Assembly: GCA_037447655.1 (NCBI GenBank)
Contig: JBBHKE010001487.1
Location: forward strand, 1-64,000
Direction of reading: 5' to 3'
Length of the DNA: 64,000 bases
DNA from: Zygnema cylindricum
Taxonomy: Eukaryota > Streptophyta > Zygnematophyceae > Zygnematales > Zygnemataceae
The translations under genes were made by a program, and so were the position numbers. Under the pieces are notes generated by a model, which was not told the origin of the DNA, ran no database searches, and saw only the letters and a program-made list of their open reading frames with translations. This document shows, piece by piece, positions 391 to 44,370 of the stretch (position 1 is its first letter; each line of letters opens with the position of its first letter).

Positions 391-1452
391 TGTGACCGTT
401 CAGAGCCATTTAACTGAGGCATATGGCCTTAAATTTACTTTTGAGCAGGCTGCAAAATATGCTGTAAAGCATGAAATGCAGACCAGCTGGTGGGATGCTC
501 ATGAGCGGCCTCTGCCTTTGCTTAAGGAATATCCAAATTCAAATCAGAACCCGATTTTTACCCGCGCAACCCATGGCCCAACCCAAGACCTCCAAGGGCT
601 CCGGCCATGGGAACATTACCGCCGACCCCCGGGGTGCGTATTTGCTTCCGGTGCGGTAACACTGGTCACGACGCGCGTTGGTGTCTAGATAAGACAGCCA
701 TGTGTACTCATTGCAATCAGATAGGTCATTATGCACATCGATGTCACGTTAAAAACCTGGACTTCAGTTATCAAAATCAAATAAAAAACGGCGGTATACT
801 TGCCGGCTCGGCAAAATTGGTCACTCCACCTAAAGAGGTAGAGAAAGACACACCTCCCAAAATCAGCAGGAGGGACCGAAAGAAAGCCGAGATGTAGGCT
901 ACCATGGCGGCCATGATGAAGGAGCAGTTTGCCGCGCTTATGGCGTAGGTCAAACCACAATTATCTGGAATGGCCCGAACTGTGGTTCATATGCCCTTTT
1001 TTGCAAGTCGATCTCTTCGAGAGTCAACCGTTCAACAGCGGGCAGCTCTCTTTAAAGGGACCCCCGATCATAATCGCGAGTCGAAATCCATTAACACCCG
1101 CATACCATTATCATTCACTAAAAAACCTCACTCACCTATTCCAGAAATAGCCTCTAGCATCACTGCTGATGCATTAACAATCCTTGAGAGGAGTATACAA
1201 GACACTTATAAGGTCAAAGAACGGTTATCAATACTGTCCACCATGCTTCCCTATCCGGATAGCAACACTAAATCCGGGGATCTAACTCCATCAGCGCAAG
1301 CGTTACAGGCTCTTCAAAACCCTCGTAATACTCTCTTTCGTCAAGCAATTACCCTTGAAGAGCGTTCCAGCCTTACTCCTCACATCACTTTTTTGGATAA
1401 CAAATTAGGTGTGTTTACAGTCAATGGGGTTGCCCAGGCTTTACCTCAATAA
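390..1452 (+). pseudogene. Gypsy gag-pol fragment, same family as the DNMT-bearing element
   Basis: This stretch parallels 14463-15507 of the gypsy element almost codon for codon. It has the end of the gag capsid-like region (HLTEAYGLKF), two zinc-knuckle-like motifs of which the first reads CFRCGNTGHDARWC, and the lysine-rich gag tail. The start of the pol frame follows (MARTVVHMPFF through FLDNKLGVFTVNGVA). A stop codon interrupts the gag tail near 896. Homology ends at about 1447, just before the position where the longer copy has its protease active site, so no catalytic domain is left. It is a dead 5'-internal fragment showing that the family is present more than once here. Confidence 0.8.
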
Positions 1453-2731: not shown

Positions 2732-3897
2732 CCATTCTACCAATGGTGTGCACGTCCCAGCCGGAAACTATGGTTCGAATTACGGAAAAAGAATTTTGTT
2801 CCTCGTGACGGAATTCCAATGTTCAATCCTGATTGGTCACGCCGAGAACCCGAGGTTGCTGCATCTCCCACAGATAAGATCTCTAAGGATTGGATTATCG
2901 TTCTTGGGAAGCGTTATCACACAAGAGGATTGGCTCAGAGCGATGAGGTGGAAGCATATATGAGGAAAATTTTTCCAAGCGAACGTGTGGTGATATTTGA
3001 TGGAAGCCTTACCATTCTTGGAGGTGAGCTAGTCTTTTTGATGTAGAGAAAAATATGTTGCTTACAATCATTATTGTGGCTTTAATAACAAGTAATATTT
3101 TTACATGCACTCCAGATATGGCGCATTCTGAACAGCAGTATTCAATAACAATTCAATATAGAAAAGCCATCGCATTACTTAGTTCATAAATAGCATGAAC
3201 CGCACTAATGAGGGGTAGTTGGTGGTGTAAATTCCAAATCCCTCTATACTACATCAGGTCAAACAACTTGAATATACTTTTTCACCAAAAGGGATTTATT
3301 ATGACATTGCACTATCTCGTTATGCGTTGTCGATGTCTTAGATTTGAGGCATTCTATGTGTTAATTTTTTTCCTCGTTGTGGTATTGCGCTCTCCTTTTT
3401 TATGGGAGAAGTTAGTTAGTATAGAAATACATTGACGGTGTTGTTAGCATACTGATTTTTTTGGTGGTTTGTCATATTTTGGTCAAGTAGGGTGGCCTCA
3501 TTTAACTAGGAATATTTATGATTTACCATGTTACTTATGGGTCTTTATATTATCTTAACCTACTGTAGTATTGGTCGATGTTGGTCTTGCAGCAAAGGAG
3601 CTTTTCAACCGTGCTCGTCTTTATGTGGCGGTTCACGGGGCTGCTATGACAAATATGATATTTATGCCCTTTAATGGGTTTGTATTTGAAATGCGACCAA
3701 GACTATACCATAATTCATGTTACCACTACCTGGCAGAAGTATGTAATCAAGAGTACTATTTGACTTTTGGAGATGGGAACAAGGACTCCCATACCACAGT
3801 CAATACAACAGAAGTTTTTGAAGTGCTTAACAAAATTGCGAGGAGGATGGATCGGCAATTAAAAGGTTCTTCTAATCTTGATTCAGAACCAGAATAG
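2732..3897 (+). CDS. GT61-family glycosyltransferase, 3' exons
   Basis: Two exons, 2732-3023 and 3569-3897, join in phase (one base carried over) and encode the C-terminal ~205 residues of a glycosyltransferase family 61 (DUF563) protein. The first exon follows a TTTCTAG acceptor and includes KDWIIVLGKRYHTRG. The second follows a pyrimidine-rich TACTGTAG acceptor and carries the family hallmark HGAAMTNMIFMP, then a tail ending at TAG. Plant GT61 enzymes are Golgi type II membrane proteins that add xylose, arabinose or N-acetylglucosamine to wall polysaccharides or N-glycans; which sugar applies here cannot be read. Full-length members are about 400-500 residues, so the 5' half, including the membrane anchor, is missing from what I can see. 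I found no convincing upstream exon between 1893 and 2731. The gene may be truncated by the transposon debris upstream, or it may have a long upstream intron. Confidence 0.82.
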
Positions 3898-5828: not shown

Positions 5829-6916
5829 TTCCATATTCATTTTTTAACGGATAAATGAGACCGTATGGTACGGTCTCGTACATTATTTTTCGTTCGATTT
5901 TCAACTGACGATAAGGTCGCACAATAGAGTTAAACGCACTTGGAAACTTGGAATACTTCGCGAGACACCTACATGGATGCTACACCGCTCATCGTTATTA
6001 GCGTTAATAACACTAATTGTGTCGCGCCATTTCTTGGCCCAAAATCATAAATTAAAGTTGATATGGAAAATTTTACTATTAGCCACTTTATATAATGTTC
6101 GTATAAATTAGCGCTATGTTTGTCAGGTCTGTTTTGTACAAAACTTTCCACGTGGCATCTTATTTGTCTTACATGCGTTAATTTACGCATGTAAATTAAC
6201 TTTCAATACATGTTAGCCGTCGAAAATGGAGGGAACATTATTAATAAAGCATAAAATGGCGTAAAAGAAAACAAGAAACGTTATTTCAAAAAGTAGGATG
6301 GAAAAAACCATCAGGGTACAAGGGCTTCAAAAACGAAAAAAAAACGCTTAAAGACTACAAAAGCCAAAGGAGACCGAGGCTAAGAAAACATGTGAAGACA
6401 CCAAATGTAAATAGAATAACTGCCAAAAATAAGAAAATCTATCCAAAAGGACAGCACACAAAGGTAAAACCTTCGCAGCTTTAACAAACAAAAGTCCACA
6501 CACTCGAAGATAGTGGATGTGGACAGAATCCCTTGGTGGAAGATCCGAGAGGCCCCGCCTATCATCCGCCACTCTGCTTCACCGTAGAAGGGTCGCAGCA
6601 TGCGCCACGTTGACGGTAAAACGAATCTAGAGGCTCGGGGGAGGGCTCCTTGGACCTCAGGATTCAATTATTTTCTTCGCGGAAATCATCAAAAGACTTG
6701 TCCAAAGAACCGCAAATTTCAGCGGCAAACGGGACAAACTAGACCGTCGAGTCTCGGTGAGCATAATCACTTTCCTTAAAATTCATTCCGTCCAAAGCCG
6801 CCACGCACGTAGGTAATACCAAGTGAGAAGAAATTGTTGTAATTTAGAAATCTTTATTTCAGTAGATAGGGCTAAAATAACTTAGAATATTTTCTAAGTA
6901 GTCTGCTGTAATACTT
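5829..6916. other. Unassigned stretch, possible LINE 3' end
   Basis: No gene is recognised. A near-palindrome at 6169-6194 has arms TTACATGCG and CGCATGTAA around an AT core. Read on the minus strand, 6667-6300 is open with a T-rich tail and could be the 3' end of a non-LTR element, but I see no diagnostic motif. Confidence 0.35.
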
Positions 6917-7491
6917 ACCTAAATTAGTGTTACAGTAGCAAAAGTACAATAGAGTATATTGTACTTTTACAATGACACGTGTCGGCAAGAGAACGTATGC
7001 AGGTTTTACAGAGTGGCGCCGACAGTCAGCCACACGCGTCACGCAGTTGACGATTGGATTCACAAGATCGGACGAACGGAATCTGAACCGCGTATTCCGG
7101 AAATATATGGTATGGTTCAATGGTACCATCGTCGATTGAATTTGTTCCAACGGACGCGATTCACCTAGGACTACAAGCGTGATTCACGAGGGACCACAAG
7201 CTGATTCACGTGGCACCACAAGTGACGAAGCACTCAGGTGCTTCGTACTACACGACCACAGTCGGCTGGACTTTAGCGACTACCGCTGGTTAAGCATCTG
7301 GAACGTTTTGTGTACGGTTTGATATTTGAAAATATATGAATAAACATTGTTTTGTAGTTTAGTGTAATAAAAAAGGTGTTCCATTAATTAGGCTTTTGGA
7401 AAAGAGTAATTAGGGTTTTTGAGGTACTACCGGTACAGTAACGTACAGGTAGGATACTTTGTCGTTAGTCAGGATAATAATCGTAGTAACA
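6917..7491 (+). mobile_element. Ty1/copia 5' LTR
   Basis: The likely LTR core is 6928-7491. It begins TGTTAC and ends GTAACA, giving the expected TG...CA ends with a 6-bp inverted repeat. The same sequence recurs at about 23499-24073. It is followed by a leader of ~300 bp and then by a copia gag start (ATG at 7791). The word AAATTAGTGT occurs both at the left end and just after the right end, so the exact boundary is uncertain by about 10 bp. Confidence 0.75.
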
Positions 7492-7790
7492 GTTACCCAA
7501 ATTAGTGTAGACAAGTAGATACACACTGTGAGTATATAACTTAGGACTTAGCCATTTTTGTAGTATCCAGTTTTGGGAATATGATTTTCTAAGGGCAGCT
7601 TTTTGGGAAACTTCCAGACATCATATCTTATGGTTTACTTGGTCATTTGAACTGCAATTATGGAAATTGCCAATTTACTGTGTTGTGTATCACTGTGTAA
7701 AATTTAAGGCATATTGGCCTTTTGAGTCATATTCTCTGTTGGATCAAAGTTGGCTGTAGAGTAGGTGTTTTGATAGTTTCTGTTGTTTTA

Positions 7791-10700
7791 ATGTCTACTT
7801 CCACTACTACTGGTGGTTCTCCTCCTGCAACGGTGTTGTAGAAAAACATGTTTTGGGCCTTTCGTCAAGAATTCCAATCTTTAATGGCCAAAAGTATGCG
7901 TATTGGGCGGCGATTTGTCGAATCCTCATTTGTAACTGCTGACTTATTGGGTGTCTTCGATGGCTCTCTTGCTGAAACAGATCCAAGTTGGGCGAAAAAG
8001 AATTCAATGGCAAGGAAGAATCTGATTCTTTGTATTTCAAAAAATTTAGTCATGTCTCGACTGAAAATGAAGAAGGCGAGCGAGATTTGGACGTCACTGA
8101 AATCCGCTTTTGAGAAAGCGAATGTTCAAGAGGACCTCTTGGTGGCAGGAAAAATTTGGGGATACAAATACTTAAGGGGAACTATGGTCGAGTATTGTGA
8201 CAATTTTAGTGCACTTATTGATACACACTCTTCTGGTGGGGGGTCATTTCCTAATCTTCAACAAGTAGCTCTGCTTATCAGAGGTCTCCCTAGTAGCTTG
8301 AAAGGTGTGTCTGCTCTGCTAAGAGGAAGAGACTAATACTAAGCTCCTTCAGAGAGAAAGAAATGTTGAAGCTTTTGCAAGAGACTTTGACAAAAGAAAT
8401 CATGTTAATCAAAACAAGAGTCAGTTTAACCAAAATCAGAATCAATTTAATCAGAGAAAATCAGAATCAGTTTAATCAGAGGCAGAATAGGCCATCTTCT
8501 ACTACTTGTGTTTATTGTTCTGAGACGGGTCATGGATACAGGTACTATCCTAAACTGAAAAAGGCAAAAAGGCTAATAAGATAGGTTTATAGAGGCCAGG
8601 TTGGCAGCAAAGCCAGTATCACAAAGGTTTTTATGGAAATCCTACCCGTGGAAGTGCTCTTTTTTCAGCTTCTGCAACTGATGCACATGAGTCTCTAAGC
8701 TTCAATGAGCAAGAGGAAGCGGATTTATTTGCTATGGCGGCAGCCATGGAGGGTCCAAAGGATGCAAGATGGATCATGGACACGGGAGCGTCGGCCCACA
8801 TATGCTGGAACAAGGCGGCTTTCACAAATCTTAAGCAAACGTCTCCAAAGAGTATCTACTATGCTTGTGGCATGAGTGTTCAAACCTCAACTCACGGTGA
8901 TGTATCTTTGATGGTAGATGTGGGGGTAAAGTCGGTAGAGAGAACCATTCACAATGTTTTGTATGTTCCAGACTTTAAGAATTTTTTTTTTCTACATCGT
9001 TAGGAGAGAGCTAAGGCTTTGAAGTTGTTCTGAAAGGAGGTAGACAGGTTGTTAGCAAGAAAGGGAAAGTAGCAGTAACTAGAACTAGAGATGCTAGCAA
9101 AATGTATTGGATGGACATGGCTGAATATAAAGAAAATGTTGTTCTCTACTCAAGTGTCCAATCTGATAATGAGTTGTGGCATAAAGGTTATGACAAATGA
9201 TTTATGATTGTCTTAAGAAAATGGTGAACTAGGGAAAAGTTGCGGGAGTTCCTCTCAGTTCTCATCCAATAAAATCAGGTGATGGTTGTTCACTTGGCAA
9301 GATCCACAAATTGCCACTTCCACAGGAAACGGACCACAGATCGCAAAAAGTTTTGCAGCTAATACATTCTGATGTTCTCGCTACTTCTCAAGTGGCTTCA
9401 ATTGGAGGCGTCCACTATATCTTTACATTCACAGATGACTACTCGAGGTACACCAAAGTTTACATCATGTAGCATAAAAGTGAAGTGTTTACTCACTTCA
9501 AACACTACAAAGCGTGGGCGGAAAAACTTCATGGAGTTCGAATCTTGGCGCTGAGATCGGACAATGGGGGAGAATACACATCAAAAGAATTCAAAGAGTT
9601 TCTCCTTCATGAAGGTATTAGCCACAATCTGATAGTTCTATATACACCAGAACAGAATGGTGTTTCTGAGAGTTTAAATAGGACAGTGACAGAGAGTGCT
9701 CGGTCCATGCTTACAGATAAAGGGCTAGATTTGAAATTATGGGCTGAAGCACTTAAGTGTGCTGTTTATATTAAGAACATAATTGCTTCTATATCGGTTA
9801 GCACTACACCTTAAAAGCTTTGGACAAGAGAGAAACCTGATGTTAGTCACTTTAAGATCTTTGACATCAAGTGTTTTATTCTAGATACATCATAGGATAG
9901 ATAGAAAATAGATGCTAAGGGCTTACCAAGAATTTTTATGGGGTATAATGATAATGCAAAAGGTTATAGAGTTTTTGTATTTGAGAAACAAAAAGTTGTT
10001 ATCTCTAGAAATATCCAGATTAAAGATGAGATAGATTCGGTTGACTCTTTTCAAGTGCCACACAAATCGGCAACGGAAAAACAAGAATATGTCATCTTTC
10101 ACCATACGCAACGAGTTTACTTTCCACAGCCAAGTGGGACTACTCTTCCTTCAGTTCCCTTAGTGACTTCATATGATGTTTCACCACAAGTTCTGCCACA
10201 GGCGGATCAAACGGTTACACCTTCCCATCCACAACAAGTTGCGGATCAGCCAAGGCAGTCAAATAACAGGCTGCAAACAATTTCAGCCTCAGAATTTTCG
10301 ATGGGAAAGAGATCTAGCAGCCGTTTGCAAGCGAACTCTCACTTTGCTTTTTCTGCAGCTACAGAGGAGCCTCTAACAATTTAATAGGCCTTTTCATCAC
10401 CCGAGAGATATCACTTGATCGAGGCGGCGAACGATGAAATGAAATCTATTGTAAAGGCACAGATGTGGGAGCTGGTGGATCTTCCTCCGGGCAGAAAAAC
10501 CATCGGCAGCAAATGGGTATTCAAGGTGAAGTTGAACCCGCACAACACCGTTGAAAGGTATAAGTCCAGACTAGTGGCCAAGGGTATAATCAAAAAGAAG
10601 GCATTGATTTTGAAGTAACCTTCTCTCCAATTGTTAGATTTCCTACTGTCAAAAATTTTGCTAAGTATAGCGGCTATAGAGAATATATAAATATAGCAAA

Positions 10701-11335
10701 TGGATGTCAAAACTGCATTCTTGCATGGAGAGTTGGAAGAGACAATCTACATGAAATAGCCTGATATGTATGTAGAAAAAGGAAAGGAGGAATTGGTGTG
10801 TAAACTGATGAAGTCTTTGTATGGGCTAAAACAAGTCTTTCTATGTGCTAAAATAAGCCTCCAGACAATGGATTTTGAAGTTCGCTGAGTTTATGACTGG
10901 GCTAGGTTTTAAGAGAATTAGCTCAAATCATTCTGTATATGTTCTACAATGGGGAGAATGGGATAATATACATTGTTGTATATGTGGATGATCTATTATT
11001 AAAAAGTACGACAATCGATGAAATAAACCGCATTAAAGCGGCTTTAAGGTCTAGTTTTGAAATGAAGGACCTCGCAGAGGCCAAGTATATCTTAGGTATA
11101 CAGGTAGAAAGAGACACAAATTAAAGGTTGATTATGTTAACTCAGAAAGAAGAAGCAATAGGTAACATGCGGGAAAGATTTGAAATGAAATATGTGAAAG
11201 GATCTGTAACTCCCATGGAATTCAGGCAGAAATTGGGAGGAATTGAGTCAGACTTAGGCATAATGGTTTGTGAGAGTCGAAAGACACAGGAGGAAGAGTT
11301 TATGGCTTCAAAGCCATATAGACAAGTAGATGAAG
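7791..11335 (+). pseudogene. Decayed Ty1/copia gag-pol
   Basis: Domains occur in copia order but are broken by stops and frameshifts. Gag starts at 7791 and has a TAG at 7839; its capsid-like part runs 7848-8336. A zinc knuckle lies near 8508 (CVYCSETGHGYRYY, last cysteine lost). The protease begins near 8734 (WIMDTGASAH) and an integrase core spans about 9370-9814 (RSDNGGEY, then SESLNRT). The reverse transcriptase runs from about 10415 and retains YVDDLLL at 10980-11000. The RT then degenerates and the element stops at 11335, where the inverted arm of the gypsy structure begins, so RNase H and the 3' LTR are missing. Copia places integrase before RT, as seen here. It is non-functional. Confidence 0.9.
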
Positions 11336-12288
11336 TGTCATGCCGTAAGGCGTCGGCGGATATTATTGGGCCGACCCATAATAATTATTCCTATATGATG
11401 TAACAGGTCTGTACGGGAGCTCACGGCGCGAAGTACGGACAGGACTGTGACCAGATTATCTGCTAGTGTACGGCACACAGGGAACGCGATCCAGAATTTA
11501 CATGGAATCGAACCGCGGTACAGCGTCAGATGTTAGGAACCCAACGACTCCGAACCTGACACATGCCAAAGTCATGGACCCTCGGAGGTTCATGCATTTA
11601 TGTTTGTTTAGTTTAGGGAGGGTTTTCATCCTCGAGGTGTAGATGTAAGGTACCCGAGGCGGCCACGCAGCGGCCGTCTCTAGAAACTGGCAGCGTTTAA
11701 ACATAGAAACCTGCACGCTCAGAGACACATAGAAATTAGTGTAGTTGTACGGCTAGTACCAGCATAGGATAAATGCCAAATGGCATGCTAGAACAGTTTT
11801 GCAAATTAAGAACACGGGAATCCAACATTGGAGCGTTGTCGTTTTCTGACAGAGTTTTTTCCCTGGGAATTTGCCGAACTCTGAAACACTTAGGTTTTGA
11901 TTCTGAATATCTACTGACAGGCTAGTTTGAGTTAGGGTTTGCTCGCAGATCCATAGTTCAGGCTAGGAAGTGTCTCTGAGTCTTATTCTCTATATTTTCT
12001 CTTTTGTACCAAAGACCTTACCTAATCTACCGGCGCACGCCAGCCTGCAAGGTTTCCCTCCATATTGTTGTTTTCTTGCTTTGGAGTGAGACTTGCGTTG
12101 GGTGAATCTGGTTCGATCTTGCTATCTTGTTGTCAGAACGTGGGCTGTGGCGGTTAAGTTCCTGGCTTGTTTGGCTTTGTGAGAACCGGCTATCTCGGCT
12201 CCTACGTCCAGTTCCGGCAGGGTTTTCCACAGCTGGTTGGACTCCTGTATGGTATATTTGAAAGACTTCAGGGCCTAGTGGCTACTGT
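11336..12288 (+). repeat. Left arm of a ~953-bp inverted repeat (LTR-like plus leader)
   Basis: This arm begins TGTCATGCCGTAAGG, a plausible LTR start, and its reverse complement is present at 19644-20597. By eye the arms differ at only a few per cent of positions. The arm also runs past a promoter-like, T-rich stretch near 11980-12010 into sequence resembling the leader of the gypsy element. I could not fix where the LTR proper ends, nor identify a primer-binding site. It abuts the copia pseudogene directly, with no target-site duplication relative to the other end. Confidence 0.85.
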
Positions 12289-13804
12289 CGCAAATATTCC
12301 CGTGTTCTTAATTTGTTGTTTCTGCAATTTGTTGTTTCATTTTCTTCAATTTGCTGTTTCTTTAATTTGTTGTTTATGCAATTTGTTGTTTCATTTTCTT
12401 CAATTTGCTGTTTCTTTAATTTGCTGTTCCTGCAATTTGTTGTTCTTCAATTTGTTGCTTTTCCAATTTGCTTATTTCTTTTCAATTTTCTTTATTGCTG
12501 GTTTAATCGTTTTTTCCGTTCGGTTTATGGTTAAATTGTTGGTGTTTTATAATACTTGTTTGTTTCATTCCAGTTATTGTTCGGTTATTGTTGAGATTGT
12601 TGGGTCTGAGATTGCTGAATTATCCGGTATAGTTTTATCTTCTTTCTTCCTACCGGATTAACTCACTCAAAACACTAGCAAACTTAAAACATTAAAACTT
12701 AAAAAAAAAAAAACCTCTAAAAATATATATATATTAGGTTGCACGAATTATCACGAAAATTATAATTGCTTTATAGTTGGGCAGAGCGTGGCATAGTGCT
12801 GATACGCGTGCCCTAACAGGCTACTAACTAAGTTGGTCATTGAGCTGTGGTGTTTCCCGACAATCTGGAATTGGAGAGGGATTGGAGCTCGCAGTACCAT
12901 ACTTGGTGCTATCGCTCTAAGGTGAGTATTCGGCTCCTTGTGGGTGCAGGCGCGAAGTAGGTAGTAAGTGCAATCGTTTAGAGGGATTATCGTCAACCGA
13001 AGGCTGTGCCTTCTGTTTGTATAGAGCATTTGTCGCATTTTCTTAGATCTGACCGTGATTGGTCTTGGATAGCGGCTTCTTGATTTTTTACATCTGGCCT
13101 TGTTGGCCCTGATAGTTTCCTGCTTTTCTTTACATCTGGCCTTGGTGGCCCTGATAGTTTCCTGCTTTTATTAGATCTGGCCACAAGTGGCCCTGAATAG
13201 GTGACATGTTTTCTTTTTGGTGTGGTTTGCAGTGAATTCTTGAGGTCTGCCTAAATCTGGCTGTGAACGGCCTTGTTAGGGGGGGGTTCTCAATTAGACT
13301 AACCCTGGTGATTCAGAATAGGCCGAATCGTGGGGGTGGTGTCTGTTTGCTTGAATTGATATAGTCCTTGTGTGGTTGATTGGTAGATCTGGCAGTGGGC
13401 ATCTGCACACTGACCTTGATTAGTGTGTTTCATATAGTTGCATCCGGATAGGCCGATTGACTGGTTACATGCCAACGGACTGGAATAATTTACAGTTTCC
13501 GGCCGGTACCACTAGAAGCTCGAGTTAATACCGTGGACCGGCTAGGGATTCCATTCCTGTCGGATCCTCGCAGTTACAGTCTCCCTATCATACTGATCAA
13601 TCTCAGCTTACAGGTTCACCCACATCCAGATCTGGTATCTCTCCTAGAGATAGAACTGCATCATCTGTTTCGTCGTCTTCTTCCCACAATTGGGGGGAAG
13701 ATTCTGACATAGGCTCCCTTGATATCCGGGATTTGAACTTACCGCCCTCACTTTTTCCGTTGGGCGGAACTATACACACTAACTCGGGTTCCTTTAGCGT
13801 GGAC
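12289..13804 (+). other. 5' leader of the gypsy element with tandem repeats
   Basis: This long leader lies between the LTR-like arm and gag. It holds a 54-bp tandem repeat (about 12308-12417) made of TTTGTTGTTT/CAATTT words. Three copies of a ~42-bp unit containing CATCTGGCCTTG follow (13090-13200). The gag frame is open from 13529 (after a TAA at 13526) but has no ATG until 13805, so translation could begin upstream at a non-AUG codon. Confidence 0.65.
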
Positions 13805-15013
13805 ATGGCCTCGTCCATGGACACCGGAGGAGGTAAAAATCAGTTTTGTTTTTCGGGTCTCAAGGATACTATGTCCTTGTCACATTTTCGCATGCTTTTT
13901 GATACTGAGATGCGCGATCTCGCATTCCGGTATCAAGATCGTTATGATTTGCGTGTAGCTTTTTCTTTGCTGGGACGATACCTAAGGGGATCTGCCCTAT
14001 CTCTCTATACTCGGAAATATGCAGCAATTTGTGCTATGACTGAGATGGCACCCGCCTATCCCGGCTCGCCAGCCATAACTGGCAGCCCGGAAATTCCTTT
14101 CCAAGCTGCAGTTCCCGCAGTTTATGACCCTACCGGTATTGAAATTTCACCCGAAATACCTGAGATTCCTCATCAATTCGCGGTGGCGGCTCGGGCAGCA
14201 ATTCCTGCTCGAGCAGCCATGCTGGTTCCCTTACAAGATCCGGTTTCGTTTGTTTTTAGTTTGTTACAGGAAGAGTACAGAATGCAGAATCCTGACCAAG
14301 TCAAAGAACTAATGAATTTCGAACGCAGACTGGGTGAAACTGCCCCGGCATTGCGAGCACGTATGGAAACCTTACGTGAAGCCCTGCCTGACCTAATGTC
14401 AGATGCAGAGGCAGTACAGAAATTTGTGGGACAATTTCCCACTCAATCCCGTCGATTCATTCAAAGTCATCTAACTGAAGCATATGGTCTGAAATTCACT
14501 TTCGAGCAGGCTGCGGAATATGCCGTAAGGTATGAAATGCAGACCAGCTGGTGGGACGCTCACGAGCGGCCTAAGCCGTCTCGTAGGGATCATCCAAATC
14601 CAAATCCAAATCCAAATCCTAACCCGCGCCCATGGCCAAACCCCAGACCTCCAAGGGTCCCGGCCATGGGATCTCTCCCAACAACCCCCGGGGTGCGTAT
14701 TTGCTTCCGGTGCGGTAACACTGGTCACGACGCACGCACCTGTCCAGATAAGACAGCCACGTGTACTCACTGTAACCAAACAAGTCATTACATTTACAGA
14801 TGTCATATTAAAAACCCCGATTTCAGTTATCAGAATCAAATCAAAAATGGCGGTATACCTACCCGCTCGGCAAAATTGGTCACTCCACCTAAAGAGGTTG
14901 AGAAAGACACACCTCCTAAAATCAGCAGGAGGGATCGAGATAAAGCTGAGATGCAGGCTACCGTGGCGGCCATGATGAAGGAGCTGTTTGCTGCCCTCAT
15001 GGCGCAGGTCTAA
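13805..15013 (+). CDS. Gypsy gag polyprotein
   Basis: An intact frame of ~402 residues from the first ATG at 13805. The N-terminal half contains a retrotransposon capsid-like region. An alanine/proline-rich insert separates the two capsid segments. A (NP)n run encoded near 14600 precedes two consecutive zinc knuckles, CFRCGNTGHDARTC and CTHCNQTSHYIYRC, which would bind the genomic RNA. The tail is lysine-rich and ends in a TAA at 15011. The pol frame lies +1 relative to gag and overlaps its last ~26 bases, so pol would need a +1 frameshift or reinitiation. Gag forms the virus-like particle in which reverse transcription occurs. The frame shows no stops, suggesting a fairly recent copy. Confidence 0.88.
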   Translation: MASSMDTGGGKNQFCFSGLKDTMSLSHFRMLFDTEMRDLAFRYQDRYDLRVAFSLLGRYLRGSALSLYTRKYAAICAMTEMAPAYPGSPAITGSPEIPFQAAVPAVYDPTGIEISPEIPEIPHQFAVAARAAIPARAAMLVPLQDPVSFVFSLLQEEYRMQNPDQVKELMNFERRLGETAPALRARMETLREALPDLMSDAEAVQKFVGQFPTQSRRFIQSHLTEAYGLKFTFEQAAEYAVRYEMQTSWWDAHERPKPSRRDHPNPNPNPNPNPRPWPNPRPPRVPAMGSLPTTPGVRICFRCGNTGHDARTCPDKTATCTHCNQTSHYIYRCHIKNPDFSYQNQIKNGGIPTRSAKLVTPPKEVEKDTPPKISRRDRDKAEMQATVAAMMKELFAALMAQV

Positions 15014-15875
15014 ACCGCAATTATCTGGAATGGCTCGAACCGTGGTTCACATGCCCTCTTTTGCGGGTCGATCTCTACGAGAGTCCACTGTTCAACAGCG
15101 GGCAACTCAATTTAAAGGGACTCCCGATCATAACCGTGAGTCCAAGTCCATTAACACCCGTATTCCATTATCTTTTGCTAAAGAACCACTCTCGCCTATT
15201 CCGGAAACCGCCTCCAGCATCACAGCTGAGGCACTAACAATCGTAGAGAAGAGTATCCAAGACTCCTACAAGGTCAAAGAACGGTTATCCATACTGTCCA
15301 CCATGCTTCCGGATCTGGTGCGCGACACAAAATCTGCGGATCTAACTCAATCTGCACATGCATTACGGGCCCTTCAGAATAATCGAAACTCTCTCTCTCT
15401 TCAAGCAATTACCCTTGAAGAACGTGCCAGTCTTACACCTCACATAAGTTTTTTGGATAACAAGCTAGGGGTATTCACAGTCAATGGGGTCGCTCCGGCG
15501 TTACCTCTCATGGACACCGGGGCCAAACCAATTATCCTCGGTTCAAATTTTGCCATCAAAATAGGTCTTACAGCAGATAAGTTAGAACCCACTACCACAC
15601 GTCTATTGACTTCCGCAGGTACCACAGAGCCAGTCCTCGGTATTACGATAGAACCAGTCTGTTTTCAGTTCCAAGGTCAGTCGGAGACAGATTTCGCAAA
15701 AATATATGCCCACGCCTTGGTCACCAAGTGCAGTGATTATGAATGCCTTGTAGGCCAAGACGTCATTTTTCGCGTAGGGGGGGGGGTTGATATGCATGAT
15801 TAGACATTTTCGTACAGACCTAACAATTTTCCGGAACGAAAAATTTGCTTACCTCTTATCTCGGCCCGGCAACCC
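14988..15875 (+). pseudogene. Gypsy pol: N-terminal part and aspartic protease
   Basis: The pol frame opens within the end of gag; its first ATG is at about 15030. The retropepsin-like active site LMDTGAKPIILG lies near 15510-15545, followed by the protease core to CLVGQDVIF near 15770. A run of ten G bases precedes a TAG at 15801. Past that stop the same frame continues without a shift into the methyltransferase segment, so the stop looks like a point mutation in a once-continuous polyprotein. The protease would cleave Gag and Pol. Confidence 0.85.
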
Positions 15876-17050
15876 ATGCCTACTACGGCCCATTCGGCGC
15901 TGATCTTACACGCCTATGCCGCAGTTAGCATAGGAGCGGACATTCTTGAATCTCTAACAGCGGAAGAAATCTCATTAAACTCTCCGGGAATACCTGAATT
16001 ATTTAGTACACTCGGATTCATCATAGACTCTTCGGATTTTGACCGACTTTATAAATTTACTATTCCAATTCCTTTATCTAGTATTCCGGATCCACCCTCC
16101 ATTACGATGGATCCATTCGGATTCTTGCCCATTAAATGGAAACCAATCAATTTACAGCCTCACCAAAACGGTCTCGTTATCTTAGACCTTTTCGCAGGAA
16201 TAGGGACTTCACTTCTCTCTTGTCTTCGGAACGGTCTTTCAATAAAGCATTACTATTCTGTCGATATTGACCCCTTGGCTAGACGCGTCTAGTTGCATCA
16301 CTGTCAGATCTTGCACGAACAGTATCCTCATCTCTTACCCCAGTCAGCGTTTCACAATATGCATTCGGCTTTGCCACAGGATATCCGGCTAATAGGAAAT
16401 CATCACTGAATGGAATTGGAACCAATTGATCTCTTTTTTGCCGGATGGGAATGTCAGGGTATGTCTAGGGTCGGGAAAGGTTTAGGTCTCGCAAATCCGC
16501 GTACTAAGCTGTTCTTCGAGGTGGTTCGTCTGATCCACTTCTTCCAAAAACTGGATCGTCCTTTCGGATACATCTTGGAAAATATCGCGGCTTATAATGA
16601 TCCTCGACCCAGGGTTCTCGCAGATTACAGACGCATCGAATCATTGATCGGACCACCGTTGATTATCGATGCCGCACGCCACGGTTCGCTGGCCCACCGG
16701 GTTCGTTCCAAGTGGACAAACCTGGTGGACATGGGTCGGCTCCGAGAAGCTAACCTCGCTGTCCGACCACCTAACCTTTCCATTCAGGAGGCACTTCTTC
16801 CATTTCATAAGGTCCAGACATGTATACAGACAGACTATCCTCCTGCATTTGGTCTTAACATTCCGGGCCAGCCACTACGTGCACTGCCTACACTAGTTGC
16901 ATATCCACACTCTCACGCATACTCACATAATGGACCGGGCATGCTTCAGAATACCCATACAGGCAGCTTAGAAGAACCCACTGCTGCAGAACGAGAACAT
17001 CTTTTACATTTCATTCCAGGCACTACTGCCGCTCGGGACTCATCGAGCGG
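15876..17050 (+). pseudogene. Retrotransposon-encoded cytosine-5 DNA methyltransferase domain
   Basis: In the pol frame, between protease and RT, the C5-methyltransferase motifs appear in canonical order. Motif I, which binds S-adenosylmethionine, is LDLFAGIGTSL near 16181, followed by SVDIDPLARR. Motif IV is GWECQGMSRVGKG, with the catalytic cysteine codon at 16452. Motif VI is YILENIAAY near 16575 and motif VIII is HRVRSKWTNL near 16694. A motif IX/X-like end follows (LPTLVAYPHSHAY, then EEPTAAEREHLL near 16970). The order I-IV-VI-VIII-X excludes the rearranged plant DRM type and fits the DNMT3/DNMT1-type fold; no known targeting domain is visible. Two in-frame stops (TAG 16290, TGA 16407) disable this copy. 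Such enzymes in retrotransposons are reported from charophytes and dinoflagellates and are thought to methylate the element's own DNA. Confidence 0.87.
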
Positions 17051-19643
17051 CAGCGCTGCACATTACTTGGTCGAGTCATGGATCCGCAATCATTGTCATT
17101 TGTCTTGGGCATGGGGTTTGCAGCTGGTCGATACGCACAGAACAATCCTTCTCAATCAGCTGGGGGGGGGGCATACACCATTTAAACATACAACATCTAA
17201 GTCCGCACCTTCTCTCCAGGGAACAACTTTTCAGCTCTCCCTCTTTCCTACCACTGCCAAGTCGGACACAGCTCACACTATTTATGATTTTTTGGTCCCT
17301 AGTCATATGGGTTGGTCCCTCCTTGCATACACAGCCGCTAGGTCTCAGGCACCGGCCCAAGTTTCCCCACACTGGACAGCTGCATTTCCGTCTAGAAGTT
17401 GGCATCACGCAGTAAACTGTTTGCATCAACTTCCAGTCGAGTACGAGTTGGGTCACTCCTTGATAGCAGATGAACAGCTAGCAATTGCACAAGCCATGGA
17501 AGCCATGACCATTAACACGCCTGAGAAACCGACATGGAAATTCGGATCTGGACTAACAAAAACTGAACACGAATTGTTGGATGGAGCCATTAACCGACAT
17601 AGAGACGCGTTCGCTTTCTCTATGAAAGACGTAGGTCGACACACCACTTACAGAATGTCCATTGACCTCGAAGATGACAGACCCATATTCAAGCCCAAAC
17701 ATCGTCTATCCGAAACTGAATGGGAATCCGTGGACAAAAGATGTGCAGAATTAGAAGAGGCAGGTCTGATTTATAGGTCCGATTCCACTTTCGCGGCGCC
17801 CACCGTTATGCCTCGTAAAAAAGACGCGGAGGGGAATTTTACAGAACGTCGTATGTGTGGGGACTATCGAGAACTAAACTCACGAACGATCCAGGACCGA
17901 CATCCAATGCCGTTGGCAGAGGACATTTTTGATCAGGTCGGAGGAGCTAAATATTTTAGTATCCTAGATGTGCGACAGGGGTTTAACCGAATCGAGATAG
18001 AGGAAAAGGACCGACACAAGACCGCATTTTGGGGTAGTGACGGACGTTGGGAATGGGCGGTTATGCCTTTCGGACTGAAAAATGCACCGGCAGTATTTCA
18101 GAAGGTCATGGACTCAGTCTTGGGGGGATGTAAGTTTGCTCGTTGCTATATCGCTTCGGCTACTATAGAGGAACATGCAGTCCATATAGAGTGGGTGTTG
18201 AAGGAATTAAAAAAAGTAGGACTTAAATGTCATCCCGCCAAATGTACCTTCGGGGCCGAAAGGGTCCCATACCTCGGGCATTTTATCTCATCCGAGGGAA
18301 TTACTCCATTAGAGGTCAAAGTGGAAGCCATTAGTAAACTACCAACCCCAACTGATCTGACCAGTCTGCGGGCATTTCTCGGATTGGCTAATTATTACCG
18401 TAGGTTTGTCCCCAGTTTCAGTACACTCGCATCTCCACTGAATGAACTTTTAAAGAAATCGGTTCCGTTCTCTTGGGGACCAACTCAGATAGAAGCTTTC
18501 CAAGGATTAAAAGACGCACTGTCCACTGCTCCCATTCTCCGTCCTCCAAATCATAAATTACCTTTTTGCCTACAGACTGTTTTTGGTAAGCCCAGTATTG
18601 CTGCTATCCTAACTCAACGCGAACTCACAGGTGAGGAATATGTGGTGGCTGACGCCAGTAGAAGCAACAATCAAGCGGAATCAAATTACAGTAGTTACGA
18701 GGGCGAATGCCTCGCCGCAGTGTGGGGTATTGTGCATTTCCGACATTATCTCTATGGCAAGCCTTTTACCCTTCTTACTGACCATCAACCATTGCATTGG
18801 CTCATGACCAATGACAAGCTATCTAGCAAATTAGCCCATTGGGCTCTTATTTTACAGGAATATGATATGGAAATAATTCATCGACCCGGGCTCCTCAGCT
18901 TGAATGCCGACGGGCTCTCCAGGAATCCTTTGCCCAACTCCATTGACAATGGTGTACGACAGGATTTTGATGGCGAAACAGTTGCCTCCCTATCGGCCGG
19001 AGCGCATCTGATTTACAGTTTTGCGGCTCCTACATATCACAAAACCGAACACGATCCATGGAGGGACAGCGTTTTGATCCTATTTCTATCCACTCAGTCT
19101 TTCCGAGCGAGCACCCTACCAGGAGAAGAGGAGCGCGTGCGGAAGAGAGCCCAAAGCTACTTGTGGATGGGGGGCTCACTTATCCGTCTTCTCGCCGATG
19201 GAAGTCATCGGCATGTTCCTCGCCCGACGGAACGACTATCACTTATCAACCAGATTCATACTGAACTTGGACACTATGGCACCAAACGGACGTTGAGCTT
19301 GGTACAGGCACGGTATTGGTGGTTAGGCATGCAGACTGATGTGGCGGCTGTGTTGCAAGAATGCAGCACATGTGACCGGCTACGAACCTCGTTTTCTAAT
19401 CGGCAAACCACCCTTCAACCCTTGCCCATTCGAGGGCTCTTCTACAGATGGTCGTGTGACTTGGCAGGTCCCTTACCAATTTCTCGAAGGGGCAAACAGT
19501 ACATTATGATTATGATCGAAAATTTCAGCAAATGGGTGGAAGTGGTGGCTCTCCCGCAGAAAACCGCTAAACTCACCACCGCGGCCTTCAAGGAGAATGT
19601 GCTTCTCTGATACGGGGCCCCTGCAGAAGTACTTACTGACCAA
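17051..19643 (+). pseudogene. Gypsy pol: reverse transcriptase, RNase H and truncated integrase
   Basis: One open frame runs from 16410 (within the methyltransferase) to 19610. The RT spans about 17670-18460 with RRMCGDYRELNSRT, FSILDVRQGFNRIEI and GLKNAPAVFQKVMD. Where the YxDD box should be, the protein reads CYIASATIEEH: about five residues including both catalytic aspartates are lost in frame near 18152. RNase H (about 18545-18950) has ECLAAVWGIVHFRHYL and LLTDHQPLHW. An integrase zinc-binding HHCC region lies near 19250-19385 (HTELGHYGTKRT, CSTCDRL) and the core starts with WSCDLAGPLP and IENFSKWVE. A TGA at 19608 precedes the remnant PAEVLTDQ, where the frame stops against the inverted arm at 19644. 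The third catalytic residue of integrase and the 3' LTR are missing. Confidence 0.9.
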
Positions 19644-20597
19644 ACAGTAGCCACTAGGCCCTGAAGTCTTTCAAATATACCCTACAGGAGTCCAACCAGC
19701 TGTGGAAAACCCTGCCGGAACTGGACGTAGGAGCCGAGATAGCCGGTTCTCACAAAGCCAGACAAGCCAGGAACTTAACCGCCACAGCCCACGTTCTGAC
19801 AACAAGATAGCAAGATCGAACCAGATTCACCCAACGCAAGTCTCACTCCAAAGCAAGAAAACAACAATATGGAAGGAAACCTTGCAGGCTGGCGTGCGCC
19901 GGTATATTAGGTAAGGTCTTTGGTACAAGAGAGAAAATATGGAGAATAGGACTCAGAGATACTCCTTAGCCTGAACTATGGATCTGCGAGCAAACCCTAA
20001 CTCAAACTAGCCTGTCAGTAGATATCCAGAATCAAAACCTAAGTGTTTCAGAGTTCGGCAAATTCCTAGGGAAAAAACTCTGTCAGAAAACGACAACGCT
20101 CCAATGTTGGATTCCCGTGTTCTTAATTTGCAAAACTGTTCTAGCATGCCATTTGGCATTTATCCTATGCTGGTACTAGCCGTAGAGCTACACTAATTTC
20201 TATGTGTCTTTGAGCGTGCAGGTTTCTATGTTTAAACGCTGCTAGTTTCTAGAGACGGCCGCTGCGTGGCCGCCTCGGGATGCCTTACATCTACACCTCG
20301 AGGATGAAAACCCTCCCTAAACTAAACAAACATAAATGCATGAACCTCCGAGGGTCCATGACTTTGGCATCTGTCAGGTTCGGAGCCGTTGGGTTCCTAA
20401 CATCTGACGCTGTACCGCGGTTCGATTCCATGTAAGTTCCGGATCGCGTTCCCTGTGTGCCGTACACTAGCAGATAATCTGGTCACAGTCTTGTCCGTAC
20501 TTCGCGCCGTGAGCTCCCGTACAGACCTGTTACATCACATAGGAATAATTATTATGGGTCGGCCCAATAATATCCGCCGACGCCTTACGGCATGACA
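19644..20597 (-). repeat. Right arm of the ~953-bp inverted repeat
   Basis: This is the reverse complement of 11336-12288, ending CGGCATGACA. It replaces the remainder of the integrase and the normal direct 3' LTR. Its outer end directly abuts the minus-strand gypsy remnant inside that element's RNase H region. The bases flanking the two arms do not form a direct repeat. A normal LTR retrotransposon has direct repeats, so this orientation implies rearrangement. Confidence 0.85.
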
Positions 20598-23500
20598 GTG
20601 TTCATCTTGCCAGGTATATATTCAATAGCAAGTTCTGGCCCGAAGGTCTGAAGAAACGTCATCTATCGCACCTGTTTCTTTGACAACTTCGGTTGTGTTT
20701 GAAGATACTATAGGGCGTGGTGATCGGTGATTATCGTGATCCGCTTCCTTTGAACGTAACGCTTCAAAAAATCCAGCGCATTAATAATTGCGATTCTCCT
20801 TTTCATGGGTGGCCCAGTAAAGTTCCGCTGCCTTTAGTTTCCAACTGTCGTAGGCAATGGGTTGAAGGCCTTTCCCTTAATCTTGCATATGGATCGCTCC
20901 AATAGCCGTATCGCCAACGTCGGTGATTATCGTCCAAGGTAACTCCGGGTCAAGGACAGCTAACACAGGGTCGGTAACCAACCACTCCTTCAGCGTGTGA
21001 AACGTTGCCTCTTGCGCCGTTTTCCACTCGTAGGGCATGTCATTCTTGAGTAAGTCCGTTAGTGGTGCAGCACTTTTTGTGAAACCTTCGACAAAACGGC
21101 AATAATAGGAGCATAGTCCCAAAAAGCTCCGCAACTCCGTAATGTTCGTTGGCTGCGGCCACTCGTTCACTGCCCTGGTTTTATTCGGATCCACTGCGAT
21201 CCCGTCCTGGCTCACCAAATGACCCAAAAACTCAATTTTCCCTTTCAAAAAGTCACACTTACTCCTTTTTGCGTACAACTTGTTCTTCCGAAAGACTTTT
21301 TGGACCATATGTAGATGCTCCAGATGATCCTCCAATGTTCGGCTATACACCAAGATGTCATCAAGAAAGACAATTACAAACGCGTCCAAATATTTCTGAA
21401 AGATAAAATTCATCAAGTGCATAAAGGTTGCCGGTGCGTTGGTAAATCTAAACGGCATAACCCGAAATTGGAAATGACCATATCGAGTCCGAAATGCTGT
21501 CTTTTCCACATCTTCCCCGGCAATTTTGACTTGGTGATAACCGCTTCGCAGGTCTATTTTTGAAAATTATTTAGCACCTCGTAATCGATTTGACAATTCG
21601 TCTATCCTCAATAGAGGGTACCCATTTTTCAGTGTTAACCAGTTTAGCGCTTTGTATTCCACACACATACAAAAACCTCCATCCTACTTATTTACGAAGA
21701 GAACGGGGGCTCCGTAAGCTGACTTGCTCGGTTCAATTGCTTCGGCTTCGACCAACTCCGCTAGTTGCTTTTTGAATTCGTCCAATTTGGTGTAACTCAT
21801 TTTCTACATTTGATTAGCCAGGTGTACAGCTCCGGGAACAAGCTCTATCTTGTGGTCCACTTCCCGCTTCAGAGGTAAGCCATCTGGGAGCTTCGAGGGA
21901 AAGACATCTACATACTCCTCAAGAAGTTTTGTCACGACTTCTGGGGCCTCTTCGGAAGTCTTTCTGGAGTCGTCACTTTCTTTTGAGTCGAAGTCGGGGT
22001 CTTTCTTACTCCATTCCTTCGGAATTCCCTCCTTCACCTCCTCCAGAGGCTGGACGACCGCCATACTAATTATTTCCACTTTCTTGAGTGCCCTCTTTAG
22101 CGTAAGGCCGAAAGCAAGCGTCCCTCTTTCGGTCTCTTACCAGTCGATCCCGCTTTTTCCTCAAACTCTTCTTCACCTTTCCTCACTCTCATGTCGCCAC
22201 TTCTCCAATCGATTGTTGGATTCCATTTTTGAAGCCACAGCTTCCCTAAGATTACCTCATGGTCTCGAAGAGGTAATACATGAAGAGTGTCATGCCATTG
22301 GAACTTGCCTATCCCAACACGTAATCTCGGCGTATGATGAGTAAAGGATAGGGAACTCCCGTCGGCCAATTGGACCGATTGACGATCCTTTAGCACCACG
22401 AGAGGAAGCTTCAACCTTTTCACCGTCACTTTGTTGATGATATTCCCAGATGCAACAGAGTCCACCATGAAGCTAGCTGCGCTCACTCCGATTCGACCTT
22501 TGAATATTAATGGATCTCCTCCATCACCGGCTAACTTCATGACGTTTAGTTTGCCCTTCTTAAGACCTTTCCTTTTTGGGCATTCTTGTGTCATATGGTC
22601 TGGGGAACCATACTGGAAACATAAATCGTTTTGCCTCCTCCGTTGGAGCTCCTCGGAGGACAAGTCATTGGTCTTGGCCTTGGTGGTCTTCTTCTTCTTC
22701 CGAACCACATTTACGACTTCCTTATCCCCGTCAATTGCTCCGAGCTCCATGGGGGTTGGACCATTGTCTCGTTGACCTCCTCCGCCATTGTTCAACCCAT
22801 ATTGATAAGGTCTACGGAAGGTGAAGTCCACCGAATCGGTCCGTTTTGCAAACTGAATGATGGCCGAGAGACTAGGGGTCGTACTTTCTCGAGCAAGCCA
22901 TTGCTCCACATCCCTTCGAATGGATAACTTAAGCCCCTTCACGTAGCGATCCACGGCTTCATCCTTCGTCATGGTGGGTATTTTGGACTTTGCACTCCAA
23001 GAACCACTGCGTATACTCCAACACCGAGGTTTGTTGCCTCAAAACTGCGATCTTATCCCTTGCAGCCTTAACCGTGTTAACGCGTTGCCAAGAGTCACGG
23101 AGTAGTTAAATAAATAGAGTCCAAACCGTCGGTATCTCATCATTTTCCACCAGTGTCCTCCACCATGCTCCCGCTGCCCCTTTAAGAAGACCACCTATGT
23201 AGTGAATCTTCTCTCGATCTGATAGGCTAGGAAATTTTTTGAGATAGTTCGCAACGGAGAACATCCACGCGTCAAGGTTTTTGTTCCTGGCCGGGTCAAA
23301 CTCGTCGGGAAGCCTTAACTTTGTTCTCCTTAAGTCTCTCTCCATGCCTCCATGAGGTCGTTCACCAAGACGAGCTTCCAAGGTTACGACGGTGTTCCTC
23401 AGTTGAGCATTTTGTAATCTCACGCCTTATAACTCCCGGAGAACTTGCGCTAACATTTCCGTGGTGGATGTTGTTTTTGAAAAGTTGGTTTCGTGCGTAC
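20598..23500 (-). pseudogene. Decayed minus-strand Ty3/gypsy gag-pol (second family)
   Basis: Read leftward, gag begins near 23450 and includes KLRLPDEFDPARNKNLDAW. The next part (22972-22097) has a zinc knuckle with one cysteine lost (CFQYGSPDHMTQEC) and a protease whose active site has decayed to DSVASGN. RT follows from about 22079 and retains FLDDILVYS near 21370, plus [14 protein letters not shown]. RNase H remnants (LQPIAYDS, then YIPGKMN) continue to 20598, where the inverted arm begins. Several stops and frameshifts interrupt it. Its sequence differs clearly from the DNMT-bearing family, so it is an independent, older element. Confidence 0.87.
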
Positions 23501-24442
23501 CTTAATTAGTGTTACAGTAGCAAAAGTACAATAGAGTATATTGTACTTTTATAAGGACACGTGTCGGCAAGAGAACGTATGCAGGTTTTACGGAGTGGCG
23601 TCGACAGTGAGCCACACGCGTCACGCAGTTGACGATTGGATTCACAGGATCGGACGAACGGAATCTGAACCGAGTATTCCGAAAATATATGATATGGTTC
23701 GACGGTACCATCGTCAATTGAATTTGTTCCAACGGACGCGATTCACCTGGGACCACAAGTGTGATTCACGAGGGACCACAAGCGTGATTCACATGGGACC
23801 ACAAGTGACGAAGCACTCAGGTGCTTCGTACTACACGACCACAGTCGGCTGGACTTTGGCGACTACCGCTGACTAAGCATCTGGAACGTTTTGTGTACGG
23901 TTTGATATTTGAAAATATATGAATAAACATTGTTTTGTAGTTTAGTGTAATAAAAAAGGTGTTCCATTAATTAGGCTTTTGGAAAAGAGTAATTAGGGTT
24001 TTTGAGGTACTACCGGTACAGTAACGTACAGGTAGGATACTTTGTCGTTAGTCAGGATAATAATCGTAGTAACAGTTACCTAAATTAGTGTAGACCACTA
24101 GATACACAGTGTGAGTGTATAACTTAGGACTTAGCCAATTTTGTAGTATCCAATATTGGGAATATGATTTTCTAAGGGCAATTTTTTGGGAAACATCCAG
24201 GCATCATATCTTATGGTTTACTATCATTTTGGTTGCAATTTTGGGAATTGTTAGTGTACTTTGTTGTGTATCAATGTGTAAAATTTGAGGCATTTTGGCT
24301 TTTTGAGTCATATTCTGTGTTGGATCAAAGTTGGCTGTTGAGTAGGTGTTTTGATAGTTTCTGCTGTTTTGATGTCTACTTCCACTACTACTGGTGGTTC
24401 TCTTCCTCCAACGGTGGTTGTAGAACAACAGAAATGTGGGTC
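23499..24442 (+). mobile_element. Second copy of copia LTR, leader and gag start
   Basis: This is a direct repeat of 6917-7858. It contains the LTR (about 23510-24073), the leader and the gag start codon at 24372, whose first codons read MSTSTTTGG as in the first copy. Homology stops about 70 bp into gag. It follows immediately after the 5' end of the minus-strand gypsy remnant and so is a truncated 5' piece of another copia copy, not the missing 3' LTR of the first one. Confidence 0.82.
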
Positions 24443-43384: not shown

Positions 43385-43387
43385 TTA

Positions 43388-44166: not shown

Positions 44167-44370
44167 TAAGATATTGCTTCCTGGTTTTCTGCGAGTCGGT
44201 TGAGAAACTGGTAACAGAGTAGCACATGTACTCGTTTTAAAAACGTACATCCCACAGTACATTATCCGTACGACGAGAACGTTAACTACGTGTAGGACAC
44301 ACGAGAACGTTTGACCTCCTAGTTCAAATTTTCAAAACTACAGTACAGTACTAATGTCTTTTAGAACTTT

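Follow-up and report, generated by a model that had tools for sequence, protein, structure and literature searches.

A decayed Ty3/gypsy retrotransposon of Zygnema cylindricum and its family, with a DNMT3-like methyltransferase between protease and reverse transcriptase

The element at the locus

The window, that is, the whole stretch of 64,000 nucleotides that we analysed, contains at 11336–19643 a decayed copy of a Ty3/gypsy retrotransposon in which a DNMT3-like C5-methyltransferase (DMT) lies between the protease and the reverse transcriptase (RT). The parts are listed in table 1. An earlier note, made from the letters of the sequence, had described a gypsy element with a C5-methyltransferase in this very position, and on both points it was right: the domain matches PF00145 (E = 2.4e-10) and is accompanied by gypsy pol domains. 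The start that it gave, 15876, falls in the linker from protease to methyltransferase; the domain itself is real and lies further downstream. The Pfam matches follow the Ty3/gypsy pol order PR-RT-RH-INT with a gypsy-type RT, and the best solved-structure match of one relative, P0101, is the Ty3 Gag-Pol (6.7e-96). Instead of the identical direct LTRs that end a Ty3/gypsy element, the family has split direct repeats. Unlike DIRS elements, which have a tyrosine recombinase and insert without target duplication, it has a DDE integrase, and its full copies are flanked by 4-bp duplications. The zinc knuckle of gag is weak (15.9 bits, below the cut-off of 20.8). The locus is, with next to no doubt, a truncated, dead member of a high-copy Ty3/gypsy family with a DNMT3-like methyltransferase.

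Table 1. Features of the methyltransferase-bearing element and of a second partial copy in the window.
Feature	Positions	Strand	Basis
Further partial copy of this family, restricted to the gag and protease part	398..1446	+	sequence comparison
Left terminal repeat A, begins TGTCATGCC	11336..12296	+	alignment to repeat A of the C1344 copy; start identical to A in full copies
A-internal segment, perfect complement of the putative primer-binding site	11802..11821	+	exact reverse complement of 12296–12315
Putative self-priming primer-binding site, end of A	12296..12315	+	20 of 20 nt complementary to 11802–11821; maximum in shuffles (n = 100) 13
gag, frame differs from pol	13424..15010	+	tblastn with the C1344 copy, 84% identity
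Aspartic protease, DTGA at 15513–15524	15420..15800	+	PF13650 2.1e-4, 22.4 bits, below cut-off 24.3
TAG stop in pol frame	15801..15803	+	reading of frame
DNMT3-like C5-methyltransferase domain (about), frame broken	16150..17160	+	stops 16290 and 16407, tail out of frame
Motif I DLFAGIG	16185..16205	+	same frame as motif IV
Motif IV catalytic Cys codon (GWECQ)	16452..16454	+	Cys in 94 of 94 aligned domains
Motif VI EN	16578..16583	+	same frame as motif IV
Motif VIII AHRVRSKWTNL	16692..16724	+	same frame as motif IV
Motif IX RALPTL	16878..16895	+	same frame as motif IV
Motif X LGRVMD	17066..17083	+	outside pol frame here; in frame in the C1344 copy
Reverse transcriptase and RNase H	17610..18870	+	PF00078, PF17917, PF17919; RT active site gone (CYIAS 18144–18158)
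Integrase zinc-binding domain and truncated core	19224..19643	+	PF17921 4e-15; rve positions 6–56 of 102; stop 19608–19610
Inverted repeat-A copy, truncates integrase	19644..20598	-	97% inverted repeat of 11336–12288

Does this copy still make an enzyme? Evidently it encodes none that works, and nothing at the locus would methylate today, because pol has four in-frame stops (the last within the integrase), motif X stands in another frame, the active site of RT is lost and the integrase is cut. The YIDD site of RT is present in 10 of the 12 genome copies examined; in the window the region is about 5 codons short (900 nt as against 915 nt elsewhere in the family) and the catalytic pair is missing. 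The integrase is cut off at 19643 by an inverted terminal repeat, and the PHD-bearing C-terminal end is absent.

What do these inverted repeats mean? The locus is probably a chimera of two elements, one on the plus and one on the minus strand, or an assembly join, and its inverted repeats would then say nothing about the family. The four flanking bases are GAAG at one outer end and GTGT at the other, the left flank reads as Copia and the right as an unrelated gypsy, and the repeats of full copies are direct. On the other hand, the inner edge of the inverted repeat falls no more than about 8 nt from where A ends, which the self-insertion of a cDNA end would fit too. As the terminal structure of the family, inverted repeats are ruled out by the direct repeats of the full copies.

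The methyltransferase domain

Motifs I, IV, VI, VIII and IX, numbered as we take the C5-methyltransferase scheme to run, occur in canonical order in the pol frame, as the earlier note had stated. Motif X, which it had placed in that frame as well, lies outside it, and the frame is broken by stops. With the stops entered as X, the window domain scores 40.8 bits against PF00145 (cut-off 22), and its open second half alone scores 30.4 bits. The profile search that the earlier note had proposed therefore returned a C5-methyltransferase match, and the failure to match that it had allowed for did not occur. The match is far beyond chance.

To which class does the domain belong? Against PDB sequences the window domain (X at stops) finds DNMT3A at 4.9e-11, followed by 3C and 3B and, a long way down, by bacterial enzymes and DNMT2. 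When eight domains are combined into a profile, it finds DNMT3A at 1.4e-19, DRM2 at 9e-11, HhaI at 1e-8 and DNMT1 at 0.3. The model predicted for the P0101 domain (pLDDT 82; the sequence is the relative's, not the window's) has 38 top structure matches, all of them DNMT3 entries (best E 7.3e-13, TM 0.64 by query length); no other enzyme comes before HhaI at rank 39. By these profile and fold rankings, rather than by a tree, the domain belongs to the DNMT3 class: DNMT1, DRM, DNMT2 and the bacterial enzymes all stand further from it than DNMT3 does. The order of motifs I to X, with the catalytic Cys, is unrearranged in the family, with X out of frame in the window; DRM methyltransferases, in contrast, have a rearranged order.

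We aligned 94 domains, those of 108 that passed a length filter, the window's included. All 94 have the catalytic Cys, the EN pair and, in motif VIII, the second Arg. Immediately before the Cys, 73 have Glu and 14 have Pro, the residue usual there. Animal DNMT3A and 3B share the fold, the motif order and the DA..AHR.R..W.NL region. They differ in having GSPCN at motif IV and ADD and PWWP domains, whereas the window family has GWECQ and a PHD elsewhere in the polyprotein. A phage origin was considered and rejected: among the viral-contig matches listed, phage relatives stand further off, with 82.6 bits as their best score on the family profile, and DNMT3 comes first in PDB.

The family in the host genome

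Is the methyltransferase peculiar to this locus? The 353-Mb genome (2689 contigs) holds at least 116 family matches, among which are the window itself and a few split pieces; of 1861 first-look candidates, 114 were scored. The domain is present in other genomic copies across the family, which rules out the one-off insertion that the earlier note had named as the outcome against it. The order PR-DMT-RT occurs in all nine mapped loci. Counting the window, 22 of the 26 best RT matches have a DMT match listed 1.55–1.87 kb upstream on the same strand, and one (C1506) has it 2.9 kb upstream; for C2450, C1707 and C2304 no upstream DMT match was found among the matches listed.

The collection of further copies, also proposed earlier, yielded one on contig C1344 with a single open frame of 2395 codons that encodes protease, methyltransferase, RT, RNase H, integrase and a C-terminal PHD. 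The family polyprotein thus reads gag-protease-DNMT3-like methyltransferase-RT-RNase H-DDE integrase-PHD. The earlier note's claim that the element lacks any targeting domain finds no support, given this PHD and the PHD of 81 among 101 relatives, the others being fragments in many cases. The two A repeats of the C1344 copy are identical across 931 bp; in five other copies 5 to 38 substitutions per about 1.1–1.5 kb separate A1 from A2, and in C449 there are 141. The family is alive, or was until recently.

Has selection acted on the domain? The window domain compared with eight copies, one of which has a stop of its own, gives dN/dS of 0.08–0.16, the purifying pattern for which the earlier note had advised looking; L086 and L094 (saturated) and L109 and L111 (too short) were left out. 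Against the C1344 domain dN is 0.030 and dS 0.353, a ratio of 0.09 over 298 codons with the two window stop codons dropped. Measured against C1344 and C783, the window lineage has 8 nonsynonymous and 47 synonymous changes (p of about 4e-20 for an assumed neutral nonsynonymous share of 0.74). The median dN/dS among open DMT copies (16 of 30 loci) is 0.22, from 40 usable of 120 pairs, which are non-independent; that of RT is 0.095 (12 copies, 14 usable of 66 pairs, likewise non-independent). The methyltransferase is less constrained than RT in seven of seven pairs measured for both. We conclude that the domain was preserved by purifying selection until recently.

A diverged second methyltransferase lineage, represented by the one member examined (L138, C544:127300–128800), has GWPCQ as its motif IV and a 1525-codon frame; its methyltransferase is 41–42% identical to the window family. 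Many PF00145 matches at profile 45–158 may resemble L138, and the genome may thus hold at least two such element lineages.

Relatives and domain orders

Searches with the window, P0002 and P0101 returned 107 public-protein relatives besides the window's own. We classed the domain order in 102 rows (101 relatives and the window's P0005). The commonest order, RT-RH-DMT-H2C2-INT-PHD, is seen in 60 rows and after a protease in three more; another 35 are parts that fit or do not contradict this whole order (among them 12 DMT-H2C2-INT-PHD and 10 RT-RH-DMT). These gypsy relatives (P0002 and others) belong to the same methyltransferase clade (0.98) and have the same INT-PHD end as the window family, but their methyltransferase lies between RNase H and integrase. 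P0101, in contrast, reads PR-DMT-RT-RH-H2C2-INT-PHD, and P0003 (host label Haematococcus lacustris) and the window piece read PR-DMT. P0054 was classed as DMT alone, with a protease preceding it and the start of RT read after it. Six added relatives (P0103–P0108) are PR-DMT-RT; five extend to INT and PHD. The PHD of P0101 matches the solved fingers of MLL3 (KMT2C), KDM5B and UHRF1. The label 'Chrzof1' of P0068 we take to be Chromochloris zofingiensis.

Do the two orders go back to one capture? The tree rows were thinned from 88 to 38 for RT and from 115 to 61 for the methyltransferase, and the iqtree methyltransferase tree has no support values. The retrotransposon domains are monophyletic with respect to DNMT3A and phage enzymes at 0.87 (55 of 55), and at 0.98 (56 of 56) in a later tree. 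Since they group apart from those enzymes, the trees suggest one methyltransferase capture followed by a change of place in the polyprotein. Without genome copies and with stops dropped, the window falls with the RH-DMT-INT group (0.98). With genome copies included, the window family joins the PR-DMT-RT group of P0101 at 0.89, and at only 0.25 once one sequence is added. In the RT tree, whose root is one partial gypsy RT from the window, the window family stands apart and the P0101 and RH-DMT-INT groups are joined at 100. The trees disagree, and the PR-DMT-RT order may be ancestral or may have arisen twice. Independent captures from close relatives could also account for the grouping; the trees contained no algal host DNMT3.

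Terminal repeats and priming

How are the full copies bounded? Seven of the nine mapped loci have direct repeats in the arrangement A-coding-B-A-B; of the other two, C1407 has the B pair only and C783 reaches the contig end. Eight further, diverged copies were compared by short end pieces. C905 and C78 have A and B pairs, C2403 has a direct pair only within its 3' piece and C1987 has an inverted match; in the short end pieces of the remaining four no repeat pair long enough was found. In the seven copies the element begins with TGTCATGCC, altered in C2495, and ends with CACGACA. The 4-bp target duplications are clean in six of the seven, with one mismatch in C449; the edges of C2602, C2234, C2495 and C449 were placed by eye. 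A G-rich tract, mostly AAGGAGCTGGGGGG, stands before B1, and the joint of B1 and A2 is GACAGCTGTC in six of seven copies. The A2/B2 joint is variable. In six of eight copies A ends 2 nt or less from the primer site; that site begins 11 nt (C2495) and 81 nt (C2234) past the repeat edge in the others, and A2 ends that much earlier.

In all eight copies, the window included, a stretch of 14–21 nt just after A1 pairs without mismatch with a segment inside A. Four versions of its sequence occur, and 100 shuffles for each copy gave maxima of 10–13 nt. Further versions occur in C605 and C783, a 13-nt pair in C2403 and slightly decayed pairs in C905 and C2053. At the expected spacing no self-pairing was found in seven of twelve further loci (C1506, C2158, C1987, C2570, C78, C1407 and C2310), several of which are old or partly covered; C2310 has another pair at another spacing. 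Pairing that is kept as the sequence changes is the mark that a structure under selection would leave.

In Tf1 and sushi LTR elements the 5' end of the RNA is complementary to the primer-binding site beside the LTR, by 11 nt in Tf1; these elements have ordinary LTRs and no methyltransferase. The window family would resemble them in its putative self-complementary primer site, with a pairing of 14–21 nt as against 11. Because a covarying complementary segment sits at the primer-binding position, there is a good likelihood that the element primes its own reverse transcription as Tf1 does. The 5' end of the RNA, where the segment at 11802–11821 perhaps lies, would fold onto the site after A and serve as the primer.

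How might self-primed reverse transcription lead to A-coding-B-A-B? The LTR of reverse transcription would be B+A, starting past the G-rich tract. The integrase would open a two-LTR circle at the B|A palindrome GACAGCTGTC, which would yield A-coding-B-A-B. The A2/B2 joint would be remade by end joining in each round; we offer this because end-joined circles would leave an edge as variable as the one observed. We hold insertion through a circle opened at the palindrome only tentatively. It is open to doubt, too, whether the integrase simply uses linear cDNA, with the start of A and the end of B2 as its ends. The 4-bp target duplications and TG..CA ends are what linear insertion yields. Against it, a G-rich tract before B1 and a primer-like site after A1 would by ordinary reverse transcription place B+A at both ends, and the A2/B2 joint differs among copies. 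Split repeats in an element with a DDE integrase bear on the question whether circular retroviral-type DNA can be a precursor of insertion.

Related elements in the literature

That retrotransposons may carry a DNMT was, as the earlier note said, known (PMC5890265). KnitGypsy-Dnmt3 of Klebsormidium nitens is a published gypsy element with a Dnmt3 (de Mendoza et al. 2018, PMC5890265). Like the window family it is, in the available text, an LTR gypsy with an unrearranged Dnmt3-type domain in the Pol frame, DIRS-like A-coding-B-A-B repeats and purifying selection (Ka/Ks < 0.2). By that text the window family shares its defining combination of gypsy pol, Dnmt3 domain and DIRS-like repeats. The likeness is one of description; domain order, PHD, primer site and target duplications do not figure in the available text. 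SymbioDIRS-Dnmt3 of Symbiodinium, as described there, shares the Dnmt3-type Pol domain, the A-coding-B-A-B repeats and two coexisting domain orders, but has a tyrosine recombinase where the window family has a DDE integrase.

The accessible text of PMC6338049 speaks in a general way of green-algal gypsy and DIRS elements that carry a methylase, and that of PMC12344493 restates the streptophyte and dinoflagellate cases. The latter also describes ChloroDNMTs of chlorophytes and charophytes, a separate green-algal C5 group, often with PWWP; they and the window domain, both green-algal C5-methyltransferases, are set side by side here by description only. In the literature searched, figures and supplements lying outside its scope, the protease-DMT-RT order, the C-terminal PHD and a self-priming site were not found in print for such an element, nor were 4-bp target duplications together with split repeats; KnitGypsy was named there only in PMC5890265. 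Known already, then, are the gypsy element with Dnmt3, the DIRS-like repeats and the purifying selection. The order of the parts, the PHD and the signs of priming and insertion are, on weak evidence, candidates for what is new.

The 2018 survey, by its available text, started from PF00145. The window's own family and seven proteins of the P0101 search do pass or carry that profile. Surveys of this kind may nevertheless miss many relatives, because 79 of the 100 listed have no PF00145 label in the database, and the clade of methyltransferase-bearing retrotransposons looks larger than reported.

What the methyltransferase may do

Retrotransposons are usually victims of methylation, and a methyltransferase of their own, kept by selection, makes the question 'why methylate DNA?' testable. 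In the explanation that we prefer overall, with moderate confidence, a self-priming member of this family opens a circle and methylates its own DNA. The methyltransferase would modify the double-stranded DNA copy of the element, either ahead of insertion or directly after it, and the methylated copy would escape defences against unmethylated DNA or be damped before it harms the host. Methylation of its own DNA as the main role falls slightly short of probable. Taken whole, a self-primed gypsy whose circle is methylated before the DDE integrase inserts it from the opened palindrome, in effect a DIRS-like cycle run by retroviral-type machinery, is unlikely to be right in every part.

Might the enzyme act on host chromatin instead? 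DNMT3 acts on chromatin with its ADD finger, and the chromodomains of chromoviruses aim the integrase. With an H3-reading PHD the methyltransferase could mark or silence the neighbourhood of the insertion, an account that we think improbable. The C-terminal PHD of the relatives and of the C1344 copy speaks for it, as does the resemblance of the P0101 finger to those of MLL3, KDM5B and UHRF1. However, the PHD follows the integrase and the methyltransferase lies far upstream near the protease, so that processing may separate them, and there the PHD may aim only the integrase, as chromodomains do.

It is more improbable still that the domain binds or modifies RNA, or is structural in the particle, with DNA methylation incidental. 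The frequent Glu before the catalytic Cys would suit this. The SymbioLINE and KnitGypsy DNMTs had no DNA activity in yeast, and for KnitGypsy-Dnmt3, where no methylation was detectable, the authors in the text available call the result inconclusive (PMC5890265). Against such a role stand the invariant Cys, EN and Arg, the purifying selection and a domain nearer to DNMT3 than to DNMT2. The findings would seem best explained by action on the element's own DNA first and on chromatin at the insertion next, with an RNA or structural role less likely.

Has methylation left a trace? Observed over expected CpG comes to 0.93 for the window, 0.83 for the element and 0.89–0.99 for the 10-kb pieces with the seven copies. 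Because CpG content is near expectation, no trace of prolonged, heavy CpG methylation is seen, which argues that the genome may not be heavily and lastingly methylated at CpG, or that repair is good. The A1/A2 transitions of the seven copies are enriched at CpG (72 of 143), where bases in CpG make up about 17% in six copies and 9% in C1344. C449 alone, however, accounts for 46 of these 72, and in the window arms the figure is 1 of 19.

Other features of the window

Direct repeats at 6916–7848 and 23498–24430 (93.6% identical) resemble a Copia LTR pair. A putative Copia gag and pol lies at 7842–11335, and this Copia is interrupted by the methyltransferase element and by the unrelated gypsy piece (20600–23430, minus strand). 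Upstream, a frame at 3559–3897 with a weak glycosyltransferase 61 match (PF04577, 23.3 bits, cut-off 27) is perhaps an exon of a host gene. A diverged tandem-repeat array, its units 65–77% alike, occupies 33600–34450. At 42626–44167, 1.5 kb match their own reverse complement at 78%, as a long hairpin or an old inverted repeat. The region 49991–57687 holds two direct 3.6-kb copies (49991–53531 and 54106–57687) that are 92.8% identical.
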